From Paludibaculum fermentans (GTDB taxonomy: Bacteria > Acidobacteriota > Terriglobia > Bryobacterales > Bryobacteraceae): a stretch of 64,000 bases of DNA. The notes beneath the pieces are model-generated. The model had not been told where the DNA came from. It saw only the letters and a list, made by a program, of their open reading frames with translations, and ran no database searches. Numbering within the stretch: position 1 is the stretch's first letter; each line of letters opens with the position of its first letter. Made by a program: the position numbers and the translations under genes. Positions 7,329 through 36,335 of this stretch are shown here, piece by piece. The stretch is from positions 5,719,501 to 5,783,500 of the forward strand of contig NZ_CP063849.1 of the NCBI RefSeq assembly GCF_015277775.1, written 5' to 3'.

Positions 7329-8594
7329 ATGAAGTACGTCAACACTCAAAAGGAACGCGATGCCGGAGTCATCCTCAATGTCGTTCGGAACTTCGGACCC
7401 CTCTCCCGCGTCGAGATCCACCGTCTCACCGGCCTGCGTACCAGCACCATCTCTCAGTTGACCAAGGAACTTCTCAGCGAGCGCCGCCTCGAGGTCGCCG
7501 GACTCAGCGATAACCCCACGGGCCGCAAGCAGGTCCTCCTGCGCGTCAACCAGGAACAGGGCTTCCTCCTCGGCATCGAGTTCGACTCCGAAACCGTCGT
7601 CGCCGGCGTCATGGACCTCGCCCCCCGCATTCGCGGCCTCGTTCGCGAACCCACCCGCCTCGATGGTGGCGAAACGGCGCTCGTCGATCAGTTGAAAGAC
7701 TGTGCCCGCAGGGCGCTCGCGGAAGCCGGGGTCTCGGCCCGCAGCCTCCGCGGCATCGGCATCGCCGACGTCGGCCTGGTCAATCGCACCCAGGGCATCT
7801 CCGTCCTCTCTTCTCAGTTGGACTTCTGGCGCAACGTCCCCCTCGTCAAAATCTTCGAGGACGCCTTCCATGTCCCCACGTTCGTCGAGAACGCTACCCG
7901 CTGCCGCGGCAATGCCGAACGCCTGCTCGGCGCCGGCGAATCCAACGACGACATGATCTATGTCGAATATGGCGCCGGCATCGGCTCCGCCCTCTTCTCC
8001 GGAGGCCGCGTCATTGAAGGCCGCCGCACCAGCGCCGGTGAATTCGGGCACACCCGCGTCAGCATGGCCAATATCGCCTGCAAATGCGGTAGCTTCGGCT
8101 GTCTCGAAGCCGTCGCCGGCTCGCCCGCCCTCGCCCATCGCTTCCGCGAGATCATCCGCGAAGGCGGCTCATCTCTCGCCCTCACGCGGACAGGCGGCGA
8201 TCCCCTGCGCGTCACCGGTTGGGATGTCCTCGAAGCCGCGCGCGCCGGCGACAAAGTCTGCCTCTCCATTTCAGAAGAGATGTGCCGCTACCTCGCCATC
8301 GGCCTCGCCAACCTGGTAAATCTGCTCGACCCCGCCCGCATCGTGCTCGATCAACGCCTCGAAATCTGCGGTGCCGGCTTCCTCGACCAGATCCAGCGCA
8401 CCGTGCGCCTCCAGGCCCTCAGCCATCTCACTGAGGATCTCGTTATCTGTTTCGGCTCGCTGGGCGACACCGCCGGTGTCCTCGGTGCGGGCCTGCTGAG
8501 CCTGGAAGAGCTGTTCACCATCCCCGAACTGAAGACCCCGCAGTATCTGCGCGAGGGCGGCTCGGGCCGCATGAAGCTCTCCACCAGCGACTAG
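7329..8594 (+). CDS. ROK-family transcriptional regulator (zinc-motif type)
   Basis: A 421-residue protein. An N-terminal winged helix-turn-helix occupies about residues 10-70 (GPLSRVEIHRLTGLRTSTISQLTKELL), followed by a ROK sugar-kinase-like domain. The ROK signature and zinc site are complete: GAGIGSALF, GEFGHTRV and CKCGSFGCLE near residues 255-265, typical of NagC/Mlc-like repressors. The kinase-type catalytic segment at VENATRCRGNAERL is degenerate, with R where kinases have the DxG/DN pattern. A sensor rather than a sugar kinase is therefore likely. It is first in a rightward seven-gene operon and diverges from the TonB receptor operon, with palindromes between, so it probably controls both in response to a sugar derivative. 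Confidence 0.9.
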   Translation: MKYVNTQKERDAGVILNVVRNFGPLSRVEIHRLTGLRTSTISQLTKELLSERRLEVAGLSDNPTGRKQVLLRVNQEQGFLLGIEFDSETVVAGVMDLAPRIRGLVREPTRLDGGETALVDQLKDCARRALAEAGVSARSLRGIGIADVGLVNRTQGISVLSSQLDFWRNVPLVKIFEDAFHVPTFVENATRCRGNAERLLGAGESNDDMIYVEYGAGIGSALFSGGRVIEGRRTSAGEFGHTRVSMANIACKCGSFGCLEAVAGSPALAHRFREIIREGGSSLALTRTGGDPLRVTGWDVLEAARAGDKVCLSISEEMCRYLAIGLANLVNLLDPARIVLDQRLEICGAGFLDQIQRTVRLQALSHLTEDLVICFGSLGDTAGVLGAGLLSLEELFTIPELKTPQYLREGGSGRMKLSTSD

Positions 8595-27931: not shown

Positions 27932-29349
27932 TTAGCTCCACCCGCCGCCCAAGGCTTTGTACAGCCGGATGAGGTCGGCGGTAATGGCGGCATCGCTCTG
28001 AGCCAGTTGATTCTGCAGACTCAGCAACGACCGTTGGGCATCCAGCACGGTGAGGAAGTCCTTCAGTCCTGAGCTGTATAGATTGCGTGACAGGGTTGCG
28101 GCGCGTTCGGCGGCGGCGGCCGCATCGGCCAGCGACTTCCGCCGGAGCTGTTCGTTGGCGAAGGCCTTCAAGGCGTCCTCGACGTCCTGCATTGCGCCGA
28201 GCACCGTGCCTTCATAGGCTGTTTCGTACTGTTCGAGCAGGACGTCCTGGATGTTGAGCTGGGCGCGCAGGCGGCGGCGGTTCAGGATGGTTTGCTGGAC
28301 CGAGCCGGCGAGGCTGCCTGCCAGGGTGGCCGGGGTGAAGAGGTTCACGATGTCGAGGGAGCTGAAGGACAGCAGGCCGGAGAGGGCGAACGAGGGATAG
28401 AGGTTGGCGGCGGCGACGCCGGCGCGGGCGGACTGGGCGGCGACCTGGCGTTCCGCACCACGGATGTCGGGGCGGCGGCGCACGAGATCGGCGGGCAGGC
28501 CGACGGCGACTTCGGCCGGGATGACGGGGACGGGCTTCACTTCGCCGAGCAAGGCGTCGACGGTGCCGGGCCGTTCCCCGAGCAGGACGGAGATGGCGTT
28601 GGACGCCTTCTGGAGTCCGGTTTCGAGGGTGGGGATGCCGGCGCGGGTGGATTCGACGGAGAGGGCGGCCTGCTGGACGTCGAGCTCGGTGGCCAGGCCG
28701 CTTTCGTGTTTGGCGACGGTCAACTGGTAGGTTTCCTGCTGGGCGGCCAGGTTGGCGCGAGTGATGGCCAGTTGCGACTGGTAAGAGCGCAGGTCGACAT
28801 AGTTGAGGGCGACTTCGGCGGTGAGGCTGACGAGGATGTTGCGGAGGTCCTCCTGGGCCGCGTCGACATCGGCGGTGTAGGCGGCGACGGTGCCGCGAAT
28901 CCTATTGAAGAAGTCCGGTTCCCAACTGGCGGAGAGGCCCGCGGAATAGGACTGGCCGAGTTCGCCGTTGGCGCGAGTGCTGGCGCGGCTGCCGGTAGCG
29001 GAGCCGCTGGCGGTGATGGAGGGATAGAGGTCAGCGCGGGCGCTTTCGCGCTGGGCGCGGGCCTGGCGGATCTTCATTTCGGCCTGGCGGAGGTCGAGGT
29101 TGCCTTTGACGGCGCGTTCTTCCAGGGCGGTGAGGACGGGGTCGCCGAGGGTGGACCACCACTGGGCGAGAGTCTTGTCGTCGGTAGGGCTGGCCTTGGC
29201 ACCGCCGGCCGGGGTGGTATTCCACGTGCCGGCCTGGGCCAACTGGGGGCGGCCGGGGGGTGGTATTGCATCCTCTTATTGGCGCAGCCGGCCAGCAGGA
29301 GGCAGGCGCCCAGCAGTGCGCCGGCAGTCTGAATTGTTTTTCGTTTCAT
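27932..29349 (-). CDS. NodT-type outer-membrane efflux lipoprotein with apparent frameshift near its N-terminus
   Basis: The body (27932 to about 29242) is a complete TolC/NodT-family channel: LAQWWSTLGDPVLTALEERA, two homologous halves with LRQAEMKIRQARAQRESARADLYPS, and the end LIRLYKALGGGWS. In its own frame the only upstream start is a TTG at 29242 with no ribosome binding site and no signal. One frame over, ATG 29349 gives a perfect lipoprotein signal, MKRKTIQTAGALLGACLLLAGC. The frames join if one base is added in either C-run on the coding strand (G-runs at plus 29245-29249 and 29255-29260), giving YHPPAAPQLAQAGTW, typical of the family. Either a sequencing slip or a genuine frameshift explains it. 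It is first in the efflux operon. Confidence 0.8.
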
Positions 29350-29518
29350 CGATTCGGCCTCGCAAGCCCAGAGTCCGCTGGAGGGGCGGACGTACGTGAG
29401 AGACAGGTGGAGACATGGAGGTGATGTAACGTGACACGTGTTGTGTTTTCAGTGGGATGCGTGGAGGGGGCAGGGCGCACGGGGTGGGTGGGACCGGACG
29501 CGCCGTGGGTGGGCGGGT

Positions 29519-30157
29519 TCATAGCCGTACGTTCCGGGCGGCCCACCATGCAGCCAAGGCGAGGGCGATGGCCATGTCGTCGTGCCTGGGTCCAGATCCG
29601 TCCTGGAGGTTGAGGACCTCTTCGCGGATGGAATCGAAGTCGTGGACGCGGGTGGGGATGCGGAGGAGGCCGCGTTCGAGGAGGAGTCGGAGGTTGGTGA
29701 CGAGGTCGCGGCGGGGTACGGTGTAGCCGCAGCCCTCGTAAGCGCCGTTGCTGTGGGCGGCGCCGCTACCGGTGATGGTGAGGGCGATGAGGGAGGCCTG
29801 GAGGTTGGCGCGCTGGAAGAGTTCGACGACGGGTGCGCCGACTCCGGAGGCGTCCACGATGAGGGTTTTGTATGGATTGGTGATGCGGCCGGAGGCGACG
29901 GGCCAGCCGCCGAGGAGGTTGCCGTCGCCGTCGCGGAGGAGTTCGCAGACGCGGTCGACGATGGTGATGTAGGGGGTGCCGAGGTGGAAGCGCTCGACAT
30001 GGCGGAGGCGGAAGAGGAGTTCCCACTCCGGCTCCATTTTGAAGCGGTTCCATTCGCCGGTGGGTTCATGGATGCGTTGGAGGATGGCGAGGGCGGCGGG
30101 GTCGCGGCGCTGGCCGAGGTCGAGGCCGAAGTAGAGGTGGGGCGGGAGGCGTTTCAT
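29519..30157 (-). CDS. Terminase large subunit, C-terminal nuclease half
   Basis: A 212-residue protein from ATG 30157, with AAGGAC upstream. It matches only the RNase H-like nuclease domain of phage large terminases: strand-1 acidic residue in LYFGLDLGQRRDP (D13, D19), a second in TLIVDASGVGAP (D102) and the late pair in RHDDMAIALALAAWWA (D193, D194). The acidic active site is therefore complete. The ATPase half is a separate ORF at 30708-31652 on the same strand, and the 550 bases between hold hairpin repeats. No capsid, portal or tail gene is nearby, so this is not an ordinary prophage. Confidence 0.8.
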   Translation of the reverse strand: MKRLPPHLYFGLDLGQRRDPAALAILQRIHEPTGEWNRFKMEPEWELLFRLRHVERFHLGTPYITIVDRVCELLRDGDGNLLGGWPVASGRITNPYKTLIVDASGVGAPVVELFQRANLQASLIALTITGSGAAHSNGAYEGCGYTVPRRDLVTNLRLLLERGLLRIPTRVHDFDSIREEVLNLQDGSGPRHDDMAIALALAAWWAARNVRL

Positions 30158-30707
30158 GGGCGGGGGTCCTTGACGGGGTGGAGCGGGGGTGGGCCTCCGG
30201 CGATGCCGGAGGGAATGCTGGTGGGGGTGTGGGCGAGGTTGGGGCGGGGTTCGCGGGGCCGCTCGTTTTGGACGGGGTTGGACGGGGTTGGGCCCCGGCA
30301 ATGCCGGAGGGAATGCTGGTGGGGGTGTGGCTGGGTTGGGGGGTTGGTTGCGACGGTGCTGGAGTCCCTCGGAGTTGTGTGGGTTGCGGCGGGGCTCCGG
30401 CAATGCCGGAGGGAATGCTGGGGGGAGAGCTTGGTGAACTGGCGAGACTGGGGTGGAGTGCTAGTTGAGAATTGGTTCTTCGGCGGGGGTGCGATCGGGC
30501 GGGCCGGATTCGAGGCGAGCTTCCATGGTGGGAATGTCGAAAGACTCGCGCCTGAGTGTGGTGGGCAGGTCCTTTTCGACGGGGCCGGACGGGGTTGGGC
30601 CTCCGGCAATGCCGGAGGGAATGCTGGTGGGGGCGTTGGCTTGGTTGGGGCTGAGTTTGCTGAGCCGGTCCTTTTGGACGGGGTGGAGCGGGGGGGTGCT
30701 TCGGGGT
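30158..30707. repeat. Array of four hairpin (REP-like) repeats between the terminase halves
   Basis: Four copies of a unit whose core is CCTCCGGC-(A/G)AT-GCCGGAGG followed by GAATGCTGGTGGGGGTG. Cores are at 30194-30212 (perfect 8-bp stem), 30293-30310 (one arm changed), 30395-30411 and 30600-30618 (perfect 8-bp stem). They are flanked by copies of GGACGGGGTTGG or GACGGGGTGGAGCGGGG and by a smaller stem, GTCC-TTTT-GGAC (30668-30679; partly kept at 30570 and 30266). Spacing is irregular (about 100, 102 and 205 bases). All four copies have the same orientation. The 205-base interval holds a non-repeat stretch with coding character. Confidence 0.85.
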
Positions 30708-31652
30708 TTAGTCGTTCCATAGGGGTTTGCCTCCGTTGAAGGGGATGTCGTCCTCGTCCAGGGCGGAGTCCCAGAGCTCGCGGCTGATGATTTGGGTGGC
30801 GTCGGAGACGAACTCGCATTCGTATTCGTTGCGGAAGACCGTTTCGCCCTTGCGGATGCGTTCCTCGGCTAGGAAGGCGGCGTCGATCAACGGGCATTCC
30901 GTGGCGGGGACTCGGAAGCGGCGCCAGTGGGTGCGGGCCGGGTCGGACCACTCCTCGTAGAAGAAGCCGGACTTGGCGGCGGGCGTGGAGATGAGCCAGA
31001 GGGACCGGTTGCGGACGACGGCCTGGAAGGGCGTTGCCATGTGGTAGAAGGAATCGCGGGTGTAGGCCGCCTCCTCGAAGATGAGCAGGGAGACGGCATC
31101 GAAGCCGCGCGTGGTGGTCTCCTGTTTGGGGAGGGCGTAGATGCAGCTTCCGTTGGGGAGGCGGGCTCCGTAGGTGCCCTCGGCGGTGGACCGGATTCGG
31201 ACGCCGGCACGGCGAAGGAATTCGCCCGCCTTGTAGACCAGACGGGCCGACTGGCGCTGGCCTGGGGAGCCGACGACCACGCTCGTGTTGGGCGTGGAGA
31301 GGGCGTGATAGGCGGCTTTCAGGGCCGTGAGCGTGGTTTTGCCGAACTGACGGGTGCAGCAGAGCATGACGTGGGAGTCCTGGCAGTCGAGGATTTCGGC
31401 CTGGGCCGGGAAGGGATGGAAGTCGAGGGCCTGGGCGGCCCATTCGGACAGGGGCGGCAGAGGAGCCGCGGGCTGGAGGGAGCCGTCCGATTCGGGCGTG
31501 AGGGCTCCGCCGGTGGCGGATGCACCTGGGGCGGCGGCCTGGAGTCCCGACGAGCGGGCGCCGATCCGGCTACGCGTTTCCCTTTGGATTGCGTAGAGCT
31601 GGAGGGGCTCCGCCATCGCGTTGCGCTTGTGCTTGCCGATCAGATAGGGCAT
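30708..31652 (-). CDS. Terminase large subunit, N-terminal ATPase half
   Basis: A 314-residue protein. After a low-complexity leader (about 30-70) there is the Q-motif-like HPFPAQAEIL, a terminase-type Walker A CTRQFGKTT (R101, K105, T106), Walker B LLIFEEAAY (E193, E194) and the coupling motif ISTPAAKSG (222-229). This is the packaging-ATPase domain. The ORF stops (WND then TAA) exactly where the nuclease domain should begin; that domain is a separate gene after the repeat array. The two parts together equal a normal large terminase in length (314 + 212). The gene follows the orphan basic/Pro-rich gene at 31744-32643. Confidence 0.82.
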   Translation of the reverse strand: MPYLIGKHKRNAMAEPLQLYAIQRETRSRIGARSSGLQAAAPGASATGGALTPESDGSLQPAAPLPPLSEWAAQALDFHPFPAQAEILDCQDSHVMLCCTRQFGKTTLTALKAAYHALSTPNTSVVVGSPGQRQSARLVYKAGEFLRRAGVRIRSTAEGTYGARLPNGSCIYALPKQETTTRGFDAVSLLIFEEAAYTRDSFYHMATPFQAVVRNRSLWLISTPAAKSGFFYEEWSDPARTHWRRFRVPATECPLIDAAFLAEERIRKGETVFRNEYECEFVSDATQIISRELWDSALDEDDIPFNGGKPLWND

Positions 31653-31743
31653 GACTTTGCTGGTCCCGAGAAAGCGAGATTCCGGCTGACAGGGCCGCGA
31701 CCTGGAGTCCCGCGTGGGGCAAGGTAGGGCCTGGCGGCGGAGT

Positions 31744-32643
31744 TCAGGCGGCAGGCCTCCTTTCGAGCGGAGTGAGCCCTGGTTCCGCGTCGGGGGCTGA
31801 CTGAGCCTCCAGGGCGACTGGGCCGGATGGGGGCGTTGGCGCGGGGTTCACGAGTTGCGGGGTCGCCTGGCTGTGGGATTCCTGGCCGAGGGGGCGGTCG
31901 ATTGCGGGCGTTTCGGCAGGCTGCGGAGCGGGGTCCGGGGGTTGAGGTGTTTGCGCGGAGGGCGGTGCTGATTCAATGGGCGGCTCCGGGGCGGCTTCCG
32001 CGGTCTCGGGGGCGGGCTCGGGGTCCCAGAGGTCGACATCCGTTGGTTCGTTTCGCGGGTCGTCGTCGGAGTCGAGCCGGCGGTCAAGTTCCTGCAAAAT
32101 GGCGGGTTCCTGCGAAATCACGACTGTTTGCTGGCGCTTGCGGAGCGAAAAAAGCGCGTTGAGTGTTTCGCGGCGCGAGCGCTGGAGGCGGGTGAATTCG
32201 CGATCGGAGTAGGCGAGGAGTTTGGAGGTTTCGAGGAGCTTGGTTTCGGCCATAACGGTGACGTCGATGGGGGCGACGCCGCGGAGGGAGCCCTGGGTGC
32301 GGCGGATGGCCTCGCACTCAGCGGCGATCTGGAGGTCGATGGCGCGGGTCTTGACGGCCATGTTGCGGACGAGCATCCACTCGATGGCGCAGAGTTCGCG
32401 GACGAGGGTGCACTCGTAGGAGTTGGTGGGGAGGAGGTCCTGGTTCAGGCGAGCCAGGAGGTCGTTGAAAGCGGAGCTGTCCTCATTCCGGAGAAGGGCC
32501 GCGTGGGCGGCAGAGACGGGTTTGGCGTACTGGCCGTGCTTGGTCGAATTGTGGGCCGAGCGCGCTTTGCCCTCGGCCGTAACAGGGCCGCGGGAGCGCT
32601 TGCCGTTGGCCCGCGCCCGCTCGGATTTCGAAAGTTCCTGCAT
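31744..32643 (-). CDS. Orphan basic/helical protein with Pro-rich tail (terminase-associated)
   Basis: A 299-residue protein, ATG at 32643 behind GAGGTGATTT. Residues 1-45 are basic (SERARANGKRSRGPVTAEGK, then ARSAHNSTKHGQYAK), a pattern I associate with many uncharacterised soil-bacterial proteins of the 'SxGPxTxEGKxxSxxNxxKHG' type. Residues of about 60-190 are predicted helical (NSYECTLVRELCAIEWMLVRN, ETSKLLAYSDREFTRLQRSRRETLNALFSL). The last 100 residues are rich in Pro, Ala and Glu. No function is established. It directly precedes the terminase ATPase half on the same strand, so a small-terminase-like or DNA-binding partner is possible, but this is inference. Confidence 0.65.
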   Translation of the reverse strand: MQELSKSERARANGKRSRGPVTAEGKARSAHNSTKHGQYAKPVSAAHAALLRNEDSSAFNDLLARLNQDLLPTNSYECTLVRELCAIEWMLVRNMAVKTRAIDLQIAAECEAIRRTQGSLRGVAPIDVTVMAETKLLETSKLLAYSDREFTRLQRSRRETLNALFSLRKRQQTVVISQEPAILQELDRRLDSDDDPRNEPTDVDLWDPEPAPETAEAAPEPPIESAPPSAQTPQPPDPAPQPAETPAIDRPLGQESHSQATPQLVNPAPTPPSGPVALEAQSAPDAEPGLTPLERRPAA

Positions 32644-33293
32644 AAATCACCTCGACGGAGACGGTAGAGTATGGAGTGGAGGAATCGGCTCGGGGTTGGG
32701 CGGGGTGGACGAGACTGATCCTTTATTTGTAGTTGGTTACAGGCGAAAGAAATATTTCGAAATGCGGTGACTGGGGTTTTTGGGGTGGGGGATTTTGGGG
32801 AGAAGTGGGGGTGGCGGGGGCGGCGGGGCGGTGGCGCCACTGGGTGTCGCGGTCGGGCTATCCGGCGCTAGAGTTGGCGCGGACGGGTTTGGCGGAGGTG
32901 CTGTTCGATGTCTGCCGGGAACTTCGAAGGGCCAGTTTGAGGCTGCGAGGGAATCGCTTCGTACACACTTGGCAGTTGACGCTCACAATCGGACTAACGG
33001 CAGGGCAGGGCCGACGAATCACTGGTGCTGACGGACTTGTTGACGTGAATTTGACTGACTTAACCGCCAGGTGGCGTACGATCCAGGAGCAAACCGGTAT
33101 GAAGCCGGAAAAGGGTCTGGTAAACGCTGGGCTGCCGCTGGCTGTACCCAACCGCGTGCCGCGCACTTGCGTTACGTCGGGATCGGCTCTCACTTTTCAG
33201 AATGGATGGTAGAGAAGACCACCGAACTGACGCGGACAGTGTCGTGACGGACGCGCGAGCTCATGCCGGACGTCAGGTCGCAGCGTCCGGCAC
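32644..33293. other. 650-bp gap between the terminase module and the ADOP permease
   Basis: Nothing convincing is encoded. A rightward open frame of about 160 codons (32733-33212) has runs of Gly/Trp, no domain and no ribosome binding site. The left part (32770-32840) is G-rich (GGGG runs), like other intergenic DNA in this module. No inverted repeats of IS type and no tRNA were seen. It may mark one end of the terminase-containing element. Confidence 0.45.
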
Positions 33294-36002
33294 TCAGTCA
33301 CCCCGGAGAGCCGACGCCGGCTCCACTTTGGCGGCTTGAGAAGCAGGGATCGACACACCTAGCATCGCAATCACCCACATGGCCAAGACCGCAAGGGAGA
33401 GTGCCAGCGGATCATTCGGCTGAATTCCAAACAGGAGGCGATGAATGAGGGAACTCAGACTGAGCGTGACGGCAAGCCCGCCAGCAACGCCAACCAACAC
33501 AAAGTGGGCAACGCCACGCACGATGGTCCAGGCCGCCTGAGCGGGGCGGGCACCGAGCGCAATCCGGATGCCGATCTCCCGCTTCCGCTGCGCCACTGAG
33601 TATGAAAGGACCCCAAAGAGACCGGCACCGGCGAGCAACGCGGCCACCATTCCGAAGAAGATCGAGAGGGTCGCCAGGGCCCGCTCCAGCCGGACATTGT
33701 CTCCGATTTGCGCGTCGACGGTCTTGATGTCGAAGAGAGCGATCGTCTTGTCGACGCGCCCCACGGCGGCGCGGATACTGTTGGCCATGGATGCCGGGTC
33801 GGACGACGTCCGGACGAACAGGGTGAGGGCGCGGAAACTACTGGTGTCGCTGCCGAGTTGGGCGAACGGCACGTACCAGAACCTGGTAGTGGCTTCGCGC
33901 ATTTCCCGGTACTTGGCGTTGCGGGACACGGCGACGATGGTGTAGTCGGGCTTGCCGCCGCCGGGGCCGATGCGCATGCCGAGAGGATTCCGGCTGCCGA
34001 AGTAGAATTGGGCGAAGGCTTGATTGACGATGGCGACTTTGGGGGCCGCGGCAGTGTCGGCATCGGTGAATTCGCGCCCGGCAATCAGGGGGATGCCCAA
34101 CGCAGAGAAGTATTTGCTGCCGATGACGTCGCGACTCGGTCCGTTGTCCCCTTCTGGCGGATTGAAGCCCGGGACGACAATCCCACTCTTCCAGGCTGCA
34201 TTGGAGATGAGACGCTGGCGCCCAAAAGCGGCCGCCCGAACTCCAGGCAGTGAACGGACTTGCTCCACCAGTTGGTTGTAGAAATCCGGCAGGCGCTCGG
34301 GCGCGTAGGTGGACGGATTGAGAGTCACCTGCAAGAGCTTATCGGTACGAAAGCCGAGGTCGATGCCGCGAAGGTTGACGAGGGACCGCATGAAGAGGCC
34401 CGCGCCGGACAATAAGATTAGCGAGATGGCCACCTGAAGGCTGATCATGACTTTTCTGCCCATGAGACGGCCGACGTGGTACGAATGGGCGCCTTTCAGA
34501 CCGGGCGCGAGCACGGAGCGCGACGACTGCAAGGCGGGCGCGAGTCCAAAGGCGATGCTCGCGGCCAGAGCCACGGCGAAGTTGAAGGCGAGCAGTGCGG
34601 CGTCCGGAGCAACGGCGACGGTGGAGTGCTCCCGATCTGAGATGACCAGTGAGACCAGGATTCGACCGAGGCTGTAGGCGACCAGCAAGCCGGCGCCCCC
34701 ACTGAAGACGCCGAGCAGAAGGCTTTCGGTGAGCAGTTGGCGGACCAGGCGGAAGCGGCTGGCGCCGATCGCGAGGCGGATGGAGAACTCATGCGCGCGA
34801 GCGGATGCTCTGGCCAGCAAGAGATGCGCGACGTTGACGCACGCGAGCAGGAGGACGGCAGCGACCATGAGGCCCAGCGCCCAGATCGCCCTCTCGTAGG
34901 TGTGTCTCTGCGCGCCCGTTCCCTGGGCCGCCGGCGTGACGTGCAGGCGTTCGGAAGCCAGTACCTTGGCGCGATACTCCGTACGACGGGACCGGCCCGG
35001 GTCGAGGTCGTGATCCTGCAGCAGGACGGGCATGAGCGATTCAGCAGCACGGTTGGCAGACACACCCGGCTTCAGACGCCCGAAAACCTCAATCCAGCGG
35101 CTGCCCCGGTTGGAGAGAGGGGGTGGTCCCGGGAACTCGACCAGGGTGGAGACCATGCTGATGGTGACTCGCAGGTCGGGCGAGTGTCCTGGATCGAGGC
35201 CGGCGAAGCCGCGTGCGGAGACACCGATTACGGTAAAGGGGTGATTGTTCAGGTGAATCGTCCGGTTGAGAACGGAGGGGTCGGCACCAAAACGGCGCTG
35301 CCAGAAATTGTGACTCAAAACGACGACAGGCTGGGCATCCGGCGCCTGATCGTCGGCGGGGGTGAACTGGCGGCCGAGGGCGGGGTGGACTCCGAGAAGT
35401 TCGAAGTAGTTGCCAGTGACGAATTCGGCCGAGACGGGTTCCGCGGCGGAATCGACCAGCATGGCGATCTGGTCGCGGCGATCGAAGCCCAGAAAGCCAT
35501 CGAACGGGAGGTTGGCAGAGGACTGAAGGTCGCGCAGGAAGGGATTCGAGAAGGAGCTGGAAGGTCCGGGAAGTTGGATCGAAGTTTTGGTAATGGCGAC
35601 GATCTGGTTAGGATCGCGGACCGGCAGCAGGTCGAGAATGACCTGCTTGACGAGGCCGAAAATCGCCGTGTTGGCGCCGACGCCGAGGGCCAGCGACAGC
35701 ACGGCCGTGGCGGTGAAGCCAGGCGATTTGAGGAGCAGGCGCGAGGCGTAGACGAGATCTTTGCCGATGTCTTCCACGAGACGGACACGGCGGTTATCGC
35801 GGCACTGCTCGGCAGTGTCCACTATGGCGCCGAAGGCACGGCGGGCCGCATCGGCAGCATCGCGTTCGCTCATTCCAGCAGAGCGGTATTCCCTAGTGAG
35901 CTGTTCGAGGTGAATGTCGAGCTCCCGTTGGAGATCGTCCTCCGCCTGGGAGTGACGCAAGAGAGAGCGGAGCCGCTGACGCATTATCCTGATGAGACGC
36001 AT
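33294..36002 (-). CDS. ADOP-type ABC permease (FtsX/MacB duplicated)
   Basis: A 902-residue protein. An N-terminal soluble part (RLRSLLRHSQAEDDLQRELDIHLEQLTREY) precedes a MacB-like core repeated twice. Each repeat has one leading membrane helix, a periplasmic domain and three trailing helices; the first trailing set is near ALGLMVAAVLLLACVNVAHLLLARAS and the second near VAALLAGAGLFGVLSYSVAQRKREIGIRIALGA. This is the acidobacterial duplicated orphan permease architecture, so called because no ATPase gene accompanies it, as here. It lies three bases downstream of a PadR gene, the standard pairing for this family. Function is probably export or mechanotransmission; the substrate is unknown. Confidence 0.93.
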   Translation of the reverse strand: MRLIRIMRQRLRSLLRHSQAEDDLQRELDIHLEQLTREYRSAGMSERDAADAARRAFGAIVDTAEQCRDNRRVRLVEDIGKDLVYASRLLLKSPGFTATAVLSLALGVGANTAIFGLVKQVILDLLPVRDPNQIVAITKTSIQLPGPSSSFSNPFLRDLQSSANLPFDGFLGFDRRDQIAMLVDSAAEPVSAEFVTGNYFELLGVHPALGRQFTPADDQAPDAQPVVVLSHNFWQRRFGADPSVLNRTIHLNNHPFTVIGVSARGFAGLDPGHSPDLRVTISMVSTLVEFPGPPPLSNRGSRWIEVFGRLKPGVSANRAAESLMPVLLQDHDLDPGRSRRTEYRAKVLASERLHVTPAAQGTGAQRHTYERAIWALGLMVAAVLLLACVNVAHLLLARASARAHEFSIRLAIGASRFRLVRQLLTESLLLGVFSGGAGLLVAYSLGRILVSLVISDREHSTVAVAPDAALLAFNFAVALAASIAFGLAPALQSSRSVLAPGLKGAHSYHVGRLMGRKVMISLQVAISLILLSGAGLFMRSLVNLRGIDLGFRTDKLLQVTLNPSTYAPERLPDFYNQLVEQVRSLPGVRAAAFGRQRLISNAAWKSGIVVPGFNPPEGDNGPSRDVIGSKYFSALGIPLIAGREFTDADTAAAPKVAIVNQAFAQFYFGSRNPLGMRIGPGGGKPDYTIVAVSRNAKYREMREATTRFWYVPFAQLGSDTSSFRALTLFVRTSSDPASMANSIRAAVGRVDKTIALFDIKTVDAQIGDNVRLERALATLSIFFGMVAALLAGAGLFGVLSYSVAQRKREIGIRIALGARPAQAAWTIVRGVAHFVLVGVAGGLAVTLSLSSLIHRLLFGIQPNDPLALSLAVLAMWVIAMLGVSIPASQAAKVEPASALRGD

Positions 36003-36005
36003 TGC

Positions 36006-36335
36006 TTAGGCCCTCTGGATGACCAGGGCGACGGCGGAGGAGAGCCGTGCCCAGCTATTCAGTTCGGTGGCGAGTTGTTTTCTGCCTTCGCGAGTAAGCG
36101 AATAGAATTTCGCGCTGCGGCCGAGGTCGGAGTCTCTCCATTCGGCCGAAATCCAGCCCTGTTGTTCCAGGCGGTGGAGCGCCGGATACAAGGATCCCTG
36201 ACCGACGGACAGGACGTCGTCGGACAACTGTTGAATCCGCTTGGCGATGCCCCAACCGTGCATCGGCTCGCGGACGATTGTCTGGAGAATGAGTAGATCC
36301 AGAGTGCCCTGGATGAGATCGGATGATTTGGCCAA
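36006..36335 (-). CDS. PadR-family transcriptional regulator
   Basis: A 109-residue protein. The TTG at 36335 is chosen because it gives the standard beginning (MAKSSDLIQGTLDLLILQTI) and has GAGGT seven bases upstream, while an earlier TTG at 36359 lies inside the iterons. The winged helix covers residues of about 10-85 (GWGIAKRIQQLSDDVLSVGQGSLYPALHRLEQQGW, then AKFYSLTREGRKQL). It is a short class-2-type PadR with a one-helix C-terminal dimerisation arm. It is co-transcribed with the ADOP permease and probably represses its own promoter, which carries matching repeats. Confidence 0.92.
   Translation of the reverse strand: MAKSSDLIQGTLDLLILQTIVREPMHGWGIAKRIQQLSDDVLSVGQGSLYPALHRLEQQGWISAEWRDSDLGRSAKFYSLTREGRKQLATELNSWARLSSAVALVIQRA

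Follow-up and report, generated by a model that had tools for sequence, protein, structure and literature searches.

A probable dispersed three-gene cassette with a split large terminase in the chromosome of Paludibaculum fermentans

The large terminase (TerL) of tailed phages unites a packaging ATPase and a nuclease in one polypeptide and is represented here by T4 gp17 and by the solved structures 4zni, 5m1f and 5tge, which we take to be of the P74-26/G20c type. Group I introns or inteins that interrupt terL are described in the accessible parts of the reports on the Jug phages (PMC12363816) and cyanophage Mic1 (PMC7156551), and for the Jug phage introns splicing was shown to restore the product. 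The accessible text of PMC6739421 describes phage-inducible chromosomal islands that redirect packaging, and that of PMC3116915 describes repetitive extragenic palindromic (REP) sequences and REP-associated tyrosine transposases (RAYTs), including REPINs. For Bryobacter aggregatus and Ca. Solibacter usitatus, Table 1 of an acidobacterial genome survey (PMC5900883) records terminase but neither capsid nor portal; the prophages of both are counted as active in the accessible text of that survey. The present analysis concerns a terminase locus in a 64,000-nucleotide stretch of the Paludibaculum fermentans chromosome (NZ_CP063849.1, positions 5,719,501 to 5,783,500; hereafter the window), which belongs to a 9.53-Mb genome.

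The locus is a cassette of three genes on the minus strand, in the transcription order KHG gene, ATPase half and nuclease half (Table 1). We are highly confident of its anatomy: the three-gene cassette is dispersed and under selection, its terminase is split, its window neighbours include no recognised phage structural genes, and REP sequences occupy its spacer. A sequence-only reading of the same DNA had reported the ORFs (open reading frames) of the two terminase halves, the 550-nt gap and its four same-direction repeats, and all of these were confirmed; both halves match solved large-terminase domains. The KHG gene, which that reading did not mention, belongs to the module as well. The catalytic domains are those of tailed-phage TerL, whereas here they occupy two genes that are chromosomal, multi-copy and free of recognised portal or capsid genes.

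Table 1. Position of the cassette genes and associated features in the window.
Feature	Position	Strand	Description
KHG gene	31744..32643	-	299 aa, all-alpha, unclassified, N-terminal GPxTxEGKxRSxxNxxKHG, small-terminase position
Large-terminase ATPase half	30708..31652	-	314 aa
Large-terminase nuclease half	29519..30157	-	212 aa; Asp13, Asp102, Asp193/194
Gap between ATPase and nuclease	30158..30707	.	550 nt, REP-type hairpin repeats throughout
Hairpin repeat copy 1	30195..30220	+	
Hairpin repeat copy 2	30293..30318	+	
Hairpin repeat copy 3	30395..30420	+	
Hairpin repeat copy 4	30601..30626	+	
Gap piece, 199 bp	30342..30540	.	100% identical to a second site in this genome, at 9.067 Mb (locus L031; 3.3 Mb off)
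KHG leader	32644..32820	-	177 nt; duplicated with the gene in solo copy L286
Leader motif TCACCGCATTTCGAAATATTTCTT	32747..32770	-	-127 from the KHG start codon; common to KHG leaders
Nuclease-side edge	29469..29518	.	synteny with two congeneric genomes stops just before

The ATPase half was assigned by Pfam (Terminase_6N, E 5e-10), by the PHROG terminase families (best E 2.9e-31) and by profile matches to the solved TerL ATPases 4zni and T4 gp17. Its motifs RQFGK, FEEAA and STP are Walker A, Walker B and the coupling motif. The nuclease half matches no family in the Pfam search, PHROG 27743 (function not annotated) with E 1.4e-19, and the solved terminase large-subunit chains 5m1f, 5m1q and 5tge with E of about 2e-15. 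Its predicted structure is confident (pLDDT 89, pTM 0.87), and in a Foldseek search with this model a T7 large-terminase model appeared at rank 14 only (E 0.067, TM 0.57). PHROG 7579 (length 239) and PHROG 27743 (length 233) look like the two halves.

The active sites had been described as intact in both halves, and the catalytic columns are indeed conserved across relatives. The Walker A lysine is present in all 64 rows with a letter (4 gaps) and the Walker B glutamate in 68 of 68; on the nuclease side, D13 and D102 are kept in 50 of 50 rows each and D194 in 48 of 48 (2 gaps). The nuclease gene has its own start, as proposed, with AAGGAC located 8 nt before the ATG. An interrupted large-terminase gene is shared with the intron- and intein-bearing phages, from which the window differs in that each half has its own start and no Rfam intron lies in the gap. 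A group I intron in the gap was rejected after an Rfam search of window positions 29000-33300, which gave no match up to E 0.1. Packaging-ATPase motifs and a terminase-type nuclease domain with conserved aspartates are thus both present, in two ORFs separated by 550 nt; as judged from motifs and profiles, the window terminase is a two-subunit form of TerL and not a standard TerL.

The split was followed through 78 acidobacterial loci, retained after removal of 15 duplicates. Both halves are adjacent on one strand in 52 of them, as separate ORFs in 40 and as a single ORF in 12, so that homologues with both halves are mostly, not always, split. The gaps of the 40 split loci are mostly short (<50 nt in 29, <100 nt in 31) and include several 1- or 4-nt overlaps; the "gap" of L097, counted among the 29, is a 415-nt overlap that depends on the choice of start. 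The largest gaps are those of the window (550 nt), L071 (601 nt), L090 (815 nt, containing another ORF) and L072 (2022 nt). The L072 gap contains an ORF of 568 aa, which we assume to be a transposase. As the split homologues mostly have short gaps, like the nearest viral contigs, the window repeats were rejected as the cause of the split.

On the viral side, 30 loci were tallied, namely the best 12 of 80 from one search and all 18 from another. By the same test 17 of these have adjacent halves, in separate ORFs in every case. Both halves lie within one ORF in L254, L255 and L257-L259. Among 42 ORFs picked by hand from the 169 around viral pairs, PHROGs matches to portals, scaffolds, head-tail adaptors and major head proteins were found, which identifies those pairs as phage packaging modules. 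Large terminases encoded by two genes also occur in uncultivated phages (IMG/VR contigs, e.g., L174, L243, L245 and L170). They are split at the identical point, with genes that overlap or nearly touch, as in the acidobacterial relatives, and they provide the nearest viral rows in the tree. They differ from the cassette in having other proteins upstream of the ATPase (helix-turn-helix-like by eye in several) and structural genes downstream. In the tree, for which 8 of 68 more distant viral loci (L175-L242, outside the split tally) were kept and the rest dropped, the acidobacterial rows fall within a largely split group. They require two label changes because the viral long branch L252 fell among them; a single acidobacterial clade is not rejected (p-AU 0.884). 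The split is, on these alignments, a family trait, and the large terminase has a common origin with that of a phage lineage whose motor and nuclease genes are separate.

The P. fermentans genome has four ATPase and three nuclease copies. Among 61 relative genomes the ATPase was found in 21 at E up to 1e-5, comprising 9 of 9 in the genus, 8 of 28 in the rest of the family and 4 of 24 outside the family (weak matches), and the nuclease in 14. A scan of the phylum at E up to 1e-30 detected the ATPase in 7 of 396 genomes, that of P. fermentans included, the other six being outside the family. When the genes around 40 loci were clustered, terminase was represented at 39 and KHG at 23, followed by a next largest cluster of 4; only KHG and terminase clusters recur widely over these loci, and no transposase was found in the cassette. 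KHG matches are far more numerous, with 66 in the own genome and 53, 35, 40, 29, 22, 30, 46 and 22 in eight others, counts in which one KHG gene can give two matches. Nuclease matches number 3-14 in the five genomes searched for both.

Recent dispersal is seen in the pair L124/L125 from one metagenome-assembled genome (MAG), which is 91.7% identical over 2399 bp, approximately the length of the cassette, with no other match in 12.7 kb and unrelated flanks. The L124 cassette is flanked by 96-bp direct repeats (L124:4814-4909 and 7357-7451; 81%) of the TTCATCCGTG type, which are not a general feature. Other MAGs contain similar dispersed families, including units without the nuclease; in lake MAGs, the KHG-ATPase units L126, L128-L130, L134 and L145 are dispersed and have no nuclease gene next to them. 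In the own genome, the solo KHG gene L286 at 7.897 Mb is 94.4% identical to the window KHG; the match covers 837 bp (window 32820-31984), beginning 177 nt ahead of the start codon and ending inside the C-terminal tail. A second solo KHG subfamily forms a bounded unit of about 1.0 kb, with 14 aligned copies in three genomes (14 of 20 loci kept after a start-pattern and ORF filter). As for a transposable element, a discrete unit is thus found at unrelated sites, and no transposase or integrase lies within it. Other copies look less mobile: L027 and L079 have flanks common to different genomes, and L025, L071, L083 and L101 have shared neighbour clusters.

Over the 1.7-1.8 kb tested at the window's own site, the congeneric genome G006 has only a KHG gene and G002 none of the cassette genes. 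Beyond the nuclease, synteny reaches position 29456 in G006 and 29468 in G002, next to a TolC-type gene. An OEP-type outer-membrane efflux gene is located on this side of the cassette. At window positions 33294-36335, a MacB/FtsX-type permease gene and a small same-strand gene stand between the cassette and further genes. A clean empty site was sought for the window copy and for the solo copies L286 and L278, and no clean joint was found; either one flank was not in place or other KHG genes were present. Upstream of gltX (named by eye; L286:3287-4828, L304, L305), differing KHG-type genes occur in two congeneric genomes and no KHG-type gene was seen in a third, as if this were a preferred site.

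Both halves were found to be under purifying selection, with dN/dS, the ratio of nonsynonymous (dN) to synonymous (dS) substitution, of 0.07-0.43 in 15 comparisons (NG86, several dS values being near or above 1). The same-genome pair L124/L125 gave 0.15 and 0.08. The window KHG differs from L286 by dN 0.008 and dS 0.115, and among the 14 solo KHG copies the median dN/dS is 0.25, with none of 91 pairs at or above 1. The view that the locus is not simply decayed is borne out by these values. One recent disruptive insertion, for which the sequence-only reading had named single-gene homologues and relaxed selection as the signs, fits neither the 40 split loci of 52 nor this selection. The KHG-ATPase-nuclease cassette is therefore, by sequence comparison, a dispersed unit under purifying selection.

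The KHG protein combines the N-terminal motif GPxTxEGKxRSxxNxxKHG with long helices (model pLDDT 74, pTM 0.48). It belongs to no Pfam or NCBIfam family, and its best PHROG match among 14 members searched reaches only E 0.0047. Of the 57 loci with sufficient sequence, 38 have a KHG-profile match within 1.5 kb upstream of the ATPase, and in 31 of these the two share a strand. The position upstream is that of a small terminase, and these searches linked the protein to no known small terminase, by sequence or by fold. The solo KHG genes (L278-L295 and L354-L367, in the own and two congeneric genomes) constitute an unclassified dispersed family; some of their proteins have a C-terminal SEC-C zinc motif (L287 by PF02810, L288 and L295 by eye), and in the 1.0-kb element the gene is immediately preceded by a conserved GCCGGC..GCCGGC hairpin. 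A short protein family (L285:3574-3975, L026:4075-4542, L072:6632-6928) resembles the middle of KHG without the N-terminal motif and lies just upstream of an ATPase gene in two of the three cases.

KHG leaders have in common a block of the form TCAC-N(about 8)-AAATATTT. A matrix was seeded with nine sites picked by eye, iterated on 60 leaders and then fixed for 37 others. Of the latter, 16 scored above the 99th percentile of shuffled sequences (0.4 expected), with every site between -96 and -200, compared with 0 of 37 reverse complements; since L323 overlaps a training locus, 15 of 36 are new. A second box, CCACTTCTCCCC (up to 2 mismatches), is located 38 nt upstream of the motif both in the window and in a number of the genome's solo copies; it occurs in 12 of 58 KHG leaders. 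The leader motif could be a KHG binding site, a mobility end or a plain operator.

Chances appear about even that the window locus is one copy of a KHG-ATPase-nuclease cassette, a bare unit of about 2.4 kb in Bryobacterales-type genomes, mobile or domesticated, that works in the following way. The KHG protein would stand in for the small terminase and bind the conserved leader element before its own gene. It would recruit the two terminase subunits, assembled in trans, to leader-bearing DNA, and cutting and translocation by the motor at the leader would drive dispersal. The spread of KHG genes together with their leaders, whether the terminase is present or not, would be accounted for in this way. 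Redirection of the packaging enzyme through the small subunit in phage-inducible chromosomal islands (PMC6739421, accessible text) offers an analogy for the proposed mechanism. The cassette differs from such islands in its own motor and nuclease, in a length below 3 kb and in having no recurring integrase or island genes. A more specific form is a rather doubtful suggestion: the KHG family would be self-spreading, its leader recognised by KHG and the DNA cut and pumped by the two-subunit terminase, without transposase, integrase or capsid. Solo KHG genes would then be non-autonomous copies and KHG genes with the motor autonomous ones.

Several observations weigh against the proposed mechanism, the chief difficulties being loci without KHG, dispersing units without nuclease and viral split-terminase loci without KHG. 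At 19 of 57 loci the 1.5 kb preceding the ATPase contain no KHG match, and in 7 of the 38 with a match KHG is on the opposite strand. An adjacent nuclease is missing from 26 of 78 acidobacterial loci, some because of contig ends, an explanation that does not hold for L025, L074, L102 or the lake group around L129/L130. Since the lake copies still disperse, a nuclease in cis is not needed for spread. Two scans of viral sequences and a phage search, made with KHG proteins, gave no homologue, and the examined viral loci, those with split terminases included, have no KHG match. When the KHG model was compared with structure libraries, nothing matched at E up to 0.001, and no entry among the best 50 per library carries the name small terminase. 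In addition, 21 of 37 further leaders fail the matrix threshold, and a plain operator could account for the motif.

Further points on that side concern the element ends and the split. At the ends, which were located only approximately, neither terminal inverted repeats nor target duplications were seen. Flanking direct repeats were rejected as element ends because they occur at 2 of 55 loci and at 3 of 70 controls. As for the split, the ATPase of the 68 distant viral contigs lies in ORFs of 431-590 aa, which are probably fused, and the fused phage terminases of Meiothermus phage MMP17 and Thermus phage Riverbug sit among split rows. At least 8 changes between split and fused state are required over 81 scored tree rows; joining and splitting have therefore both occurred, and either state may have come first.

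Possible, though doubtful, is a host-domesticated DNA-processing or anti-phage function, with a dispersal that reflects old duplication and lateral transfer only. Together with transposition by other machinery, it is a rival to be taken seriously. Purifying selection and the sites common to several genomes agree with such a role. In PADLOC scans, Cas3 models matched two flank genes (by eye in L091 and L092 of one genome) and methyltransferase models matched single genes; however, no family among the best 25 of 99 was matched by more than two of 128 flank genes. These scans and the PHROG flank scans below used pools of unrelated proteins entered as alignments. A host function is further opposed by the recent same-genome copies with unrelated flanks, by the high KHG copy number and by the loss at single sites as in G006 and G002. 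The cassettes L091 and L092, from one MAG, appear directly beside type I (Cas3g-like) CRISPR genes.

It seems rather unlikely that the KHG units are moved by trans-acting transposition machinery and carry the terminase genes as cargo without a role in mobility. The ratio of 66 KHG matches to 4 ATPase copies in the own genome would be in line with this, as would the dispersal of units without nuclease. Catalytic residues are nevertheless kept in the dispersed copies, which is not expected of cargo, and the terminase stays near KHG even at the 7 loci where KHG is on the other strand.

Satellite-like packaging, in which KHG as a small terminase would mark its own leader so that flanking chromosome is packaged in helper-phage capsids, is unlikely in our judgement. 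By analogy with the islands that redirect packaging (PMC6739421, accessible text), it would suit the gene order, which fits small plus large terminase, and the conserved site adjoining the KHG gene. No integrase or other satellite or island gene recurs with the cassette, though, and none was recognised among the ten window neighbours. Transduction alone would moreover not be expected to put copies at new, non-homologous sites.

The gap repeats had been proposed as recognition sites of a domesticated DNA-translocation and cleavage module. Of this proposal, the chromosomal module without recognised phage structural neighbours stands, while the role of the repeats is not supported, and a motor using them as sites is very improbable. 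The gap has four same-direction repeats, where 100 shuffles give an expectation of 0. Together with its tail, the hairpin CTCCGGCAATGCCGGAG (up to 3 mismatches) has 17 matches at seven places in the own genome, the reversed control giving 0. The six places other than the window are all more than about 100 kb away from each of the three further ATPase copies. At 6.235 Mb (L033), five copies are located at the 5' end of a Y1 transposase ORF, some inside its longest reading. This ORF (L033:1327-2202) passes PF01797 (Y1 transposase, RAYT) with 26.1 bits at a cut-off of 23, and to judge by this match repeats and ORF look like a REP/RAYT pair. Another cluster of the repeats adjoins an integrase-core (rve) transposase gene (L028:2563-3774).

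Hairpins also occur at other cassette copies. L071, the nearest cassette that still has the nuclease, carries its own tandem hairpin array in the same gap (93-bp unit, 5.4 copies), with a sequence unrelated to the window repeats. Hairpins with stems of 7 are denser in eight gaps of 90-700 nt (6.8 per kb) than in 75 other intergenic stretches (1.7 per kb), and 11 of the 17 hairpins behind this excess come from L071. Both findings would favour recognition sites, against which stand the unrelated arrays, the short gaps of 31 of 40 split copies and the occurrence of the window repeat away from terminase genes and beside a RAYT. The complete identity of the 199-bp gap piece to the site at 9.067 Mb indicates that part of the gap arrived recently. 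In our reading, the gap repeats are probably RAYT-type REP insertions in a spacer tolerant of insertion; this tolerance itself points to two products that act as separate polypeptides. They resemble the REP/RAYT system (PMC3116915, accessible text) in being dispersed hairpins in groups, one of which adjoins a Y1 transposase gene; only the gap repeats belong to this kind, the cassette does not. The hairpin arrays may have a role in nuclease expression.

That no other phage gene lies near held for the ten window neighbours tested (22.2-29.2 and 33.3-40.2 kb), whose PHROG matches were ABC transporters or unannotated families, none named capsid, portal or tail. Among 128 flank genes of related loci, the best 25 of 78 PHROG families likewise included none named portal, capsid or tail, and one protease. 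Large terminases are normally phage genes and broken copies exist (L144, L152, L159), but a decayed prophage remnant is hardly credible given the same bare unit in many loci with mostly unrelated flanks, the absence of recognised structural genes near the window copy, the intact active sites and the purifying selection.

No paper on such a cassette was found in the literature searched, subscription journals being mostly beyond the search. If the motor does drive the spread, it would represent a mode of DNA mobility not found described in that literature. The large terminase serves as a marker of phages and active prophages, and here it recurs where no phage was recognised. With a natural two-subunit terminase, motor and nuclease could be studied separately.

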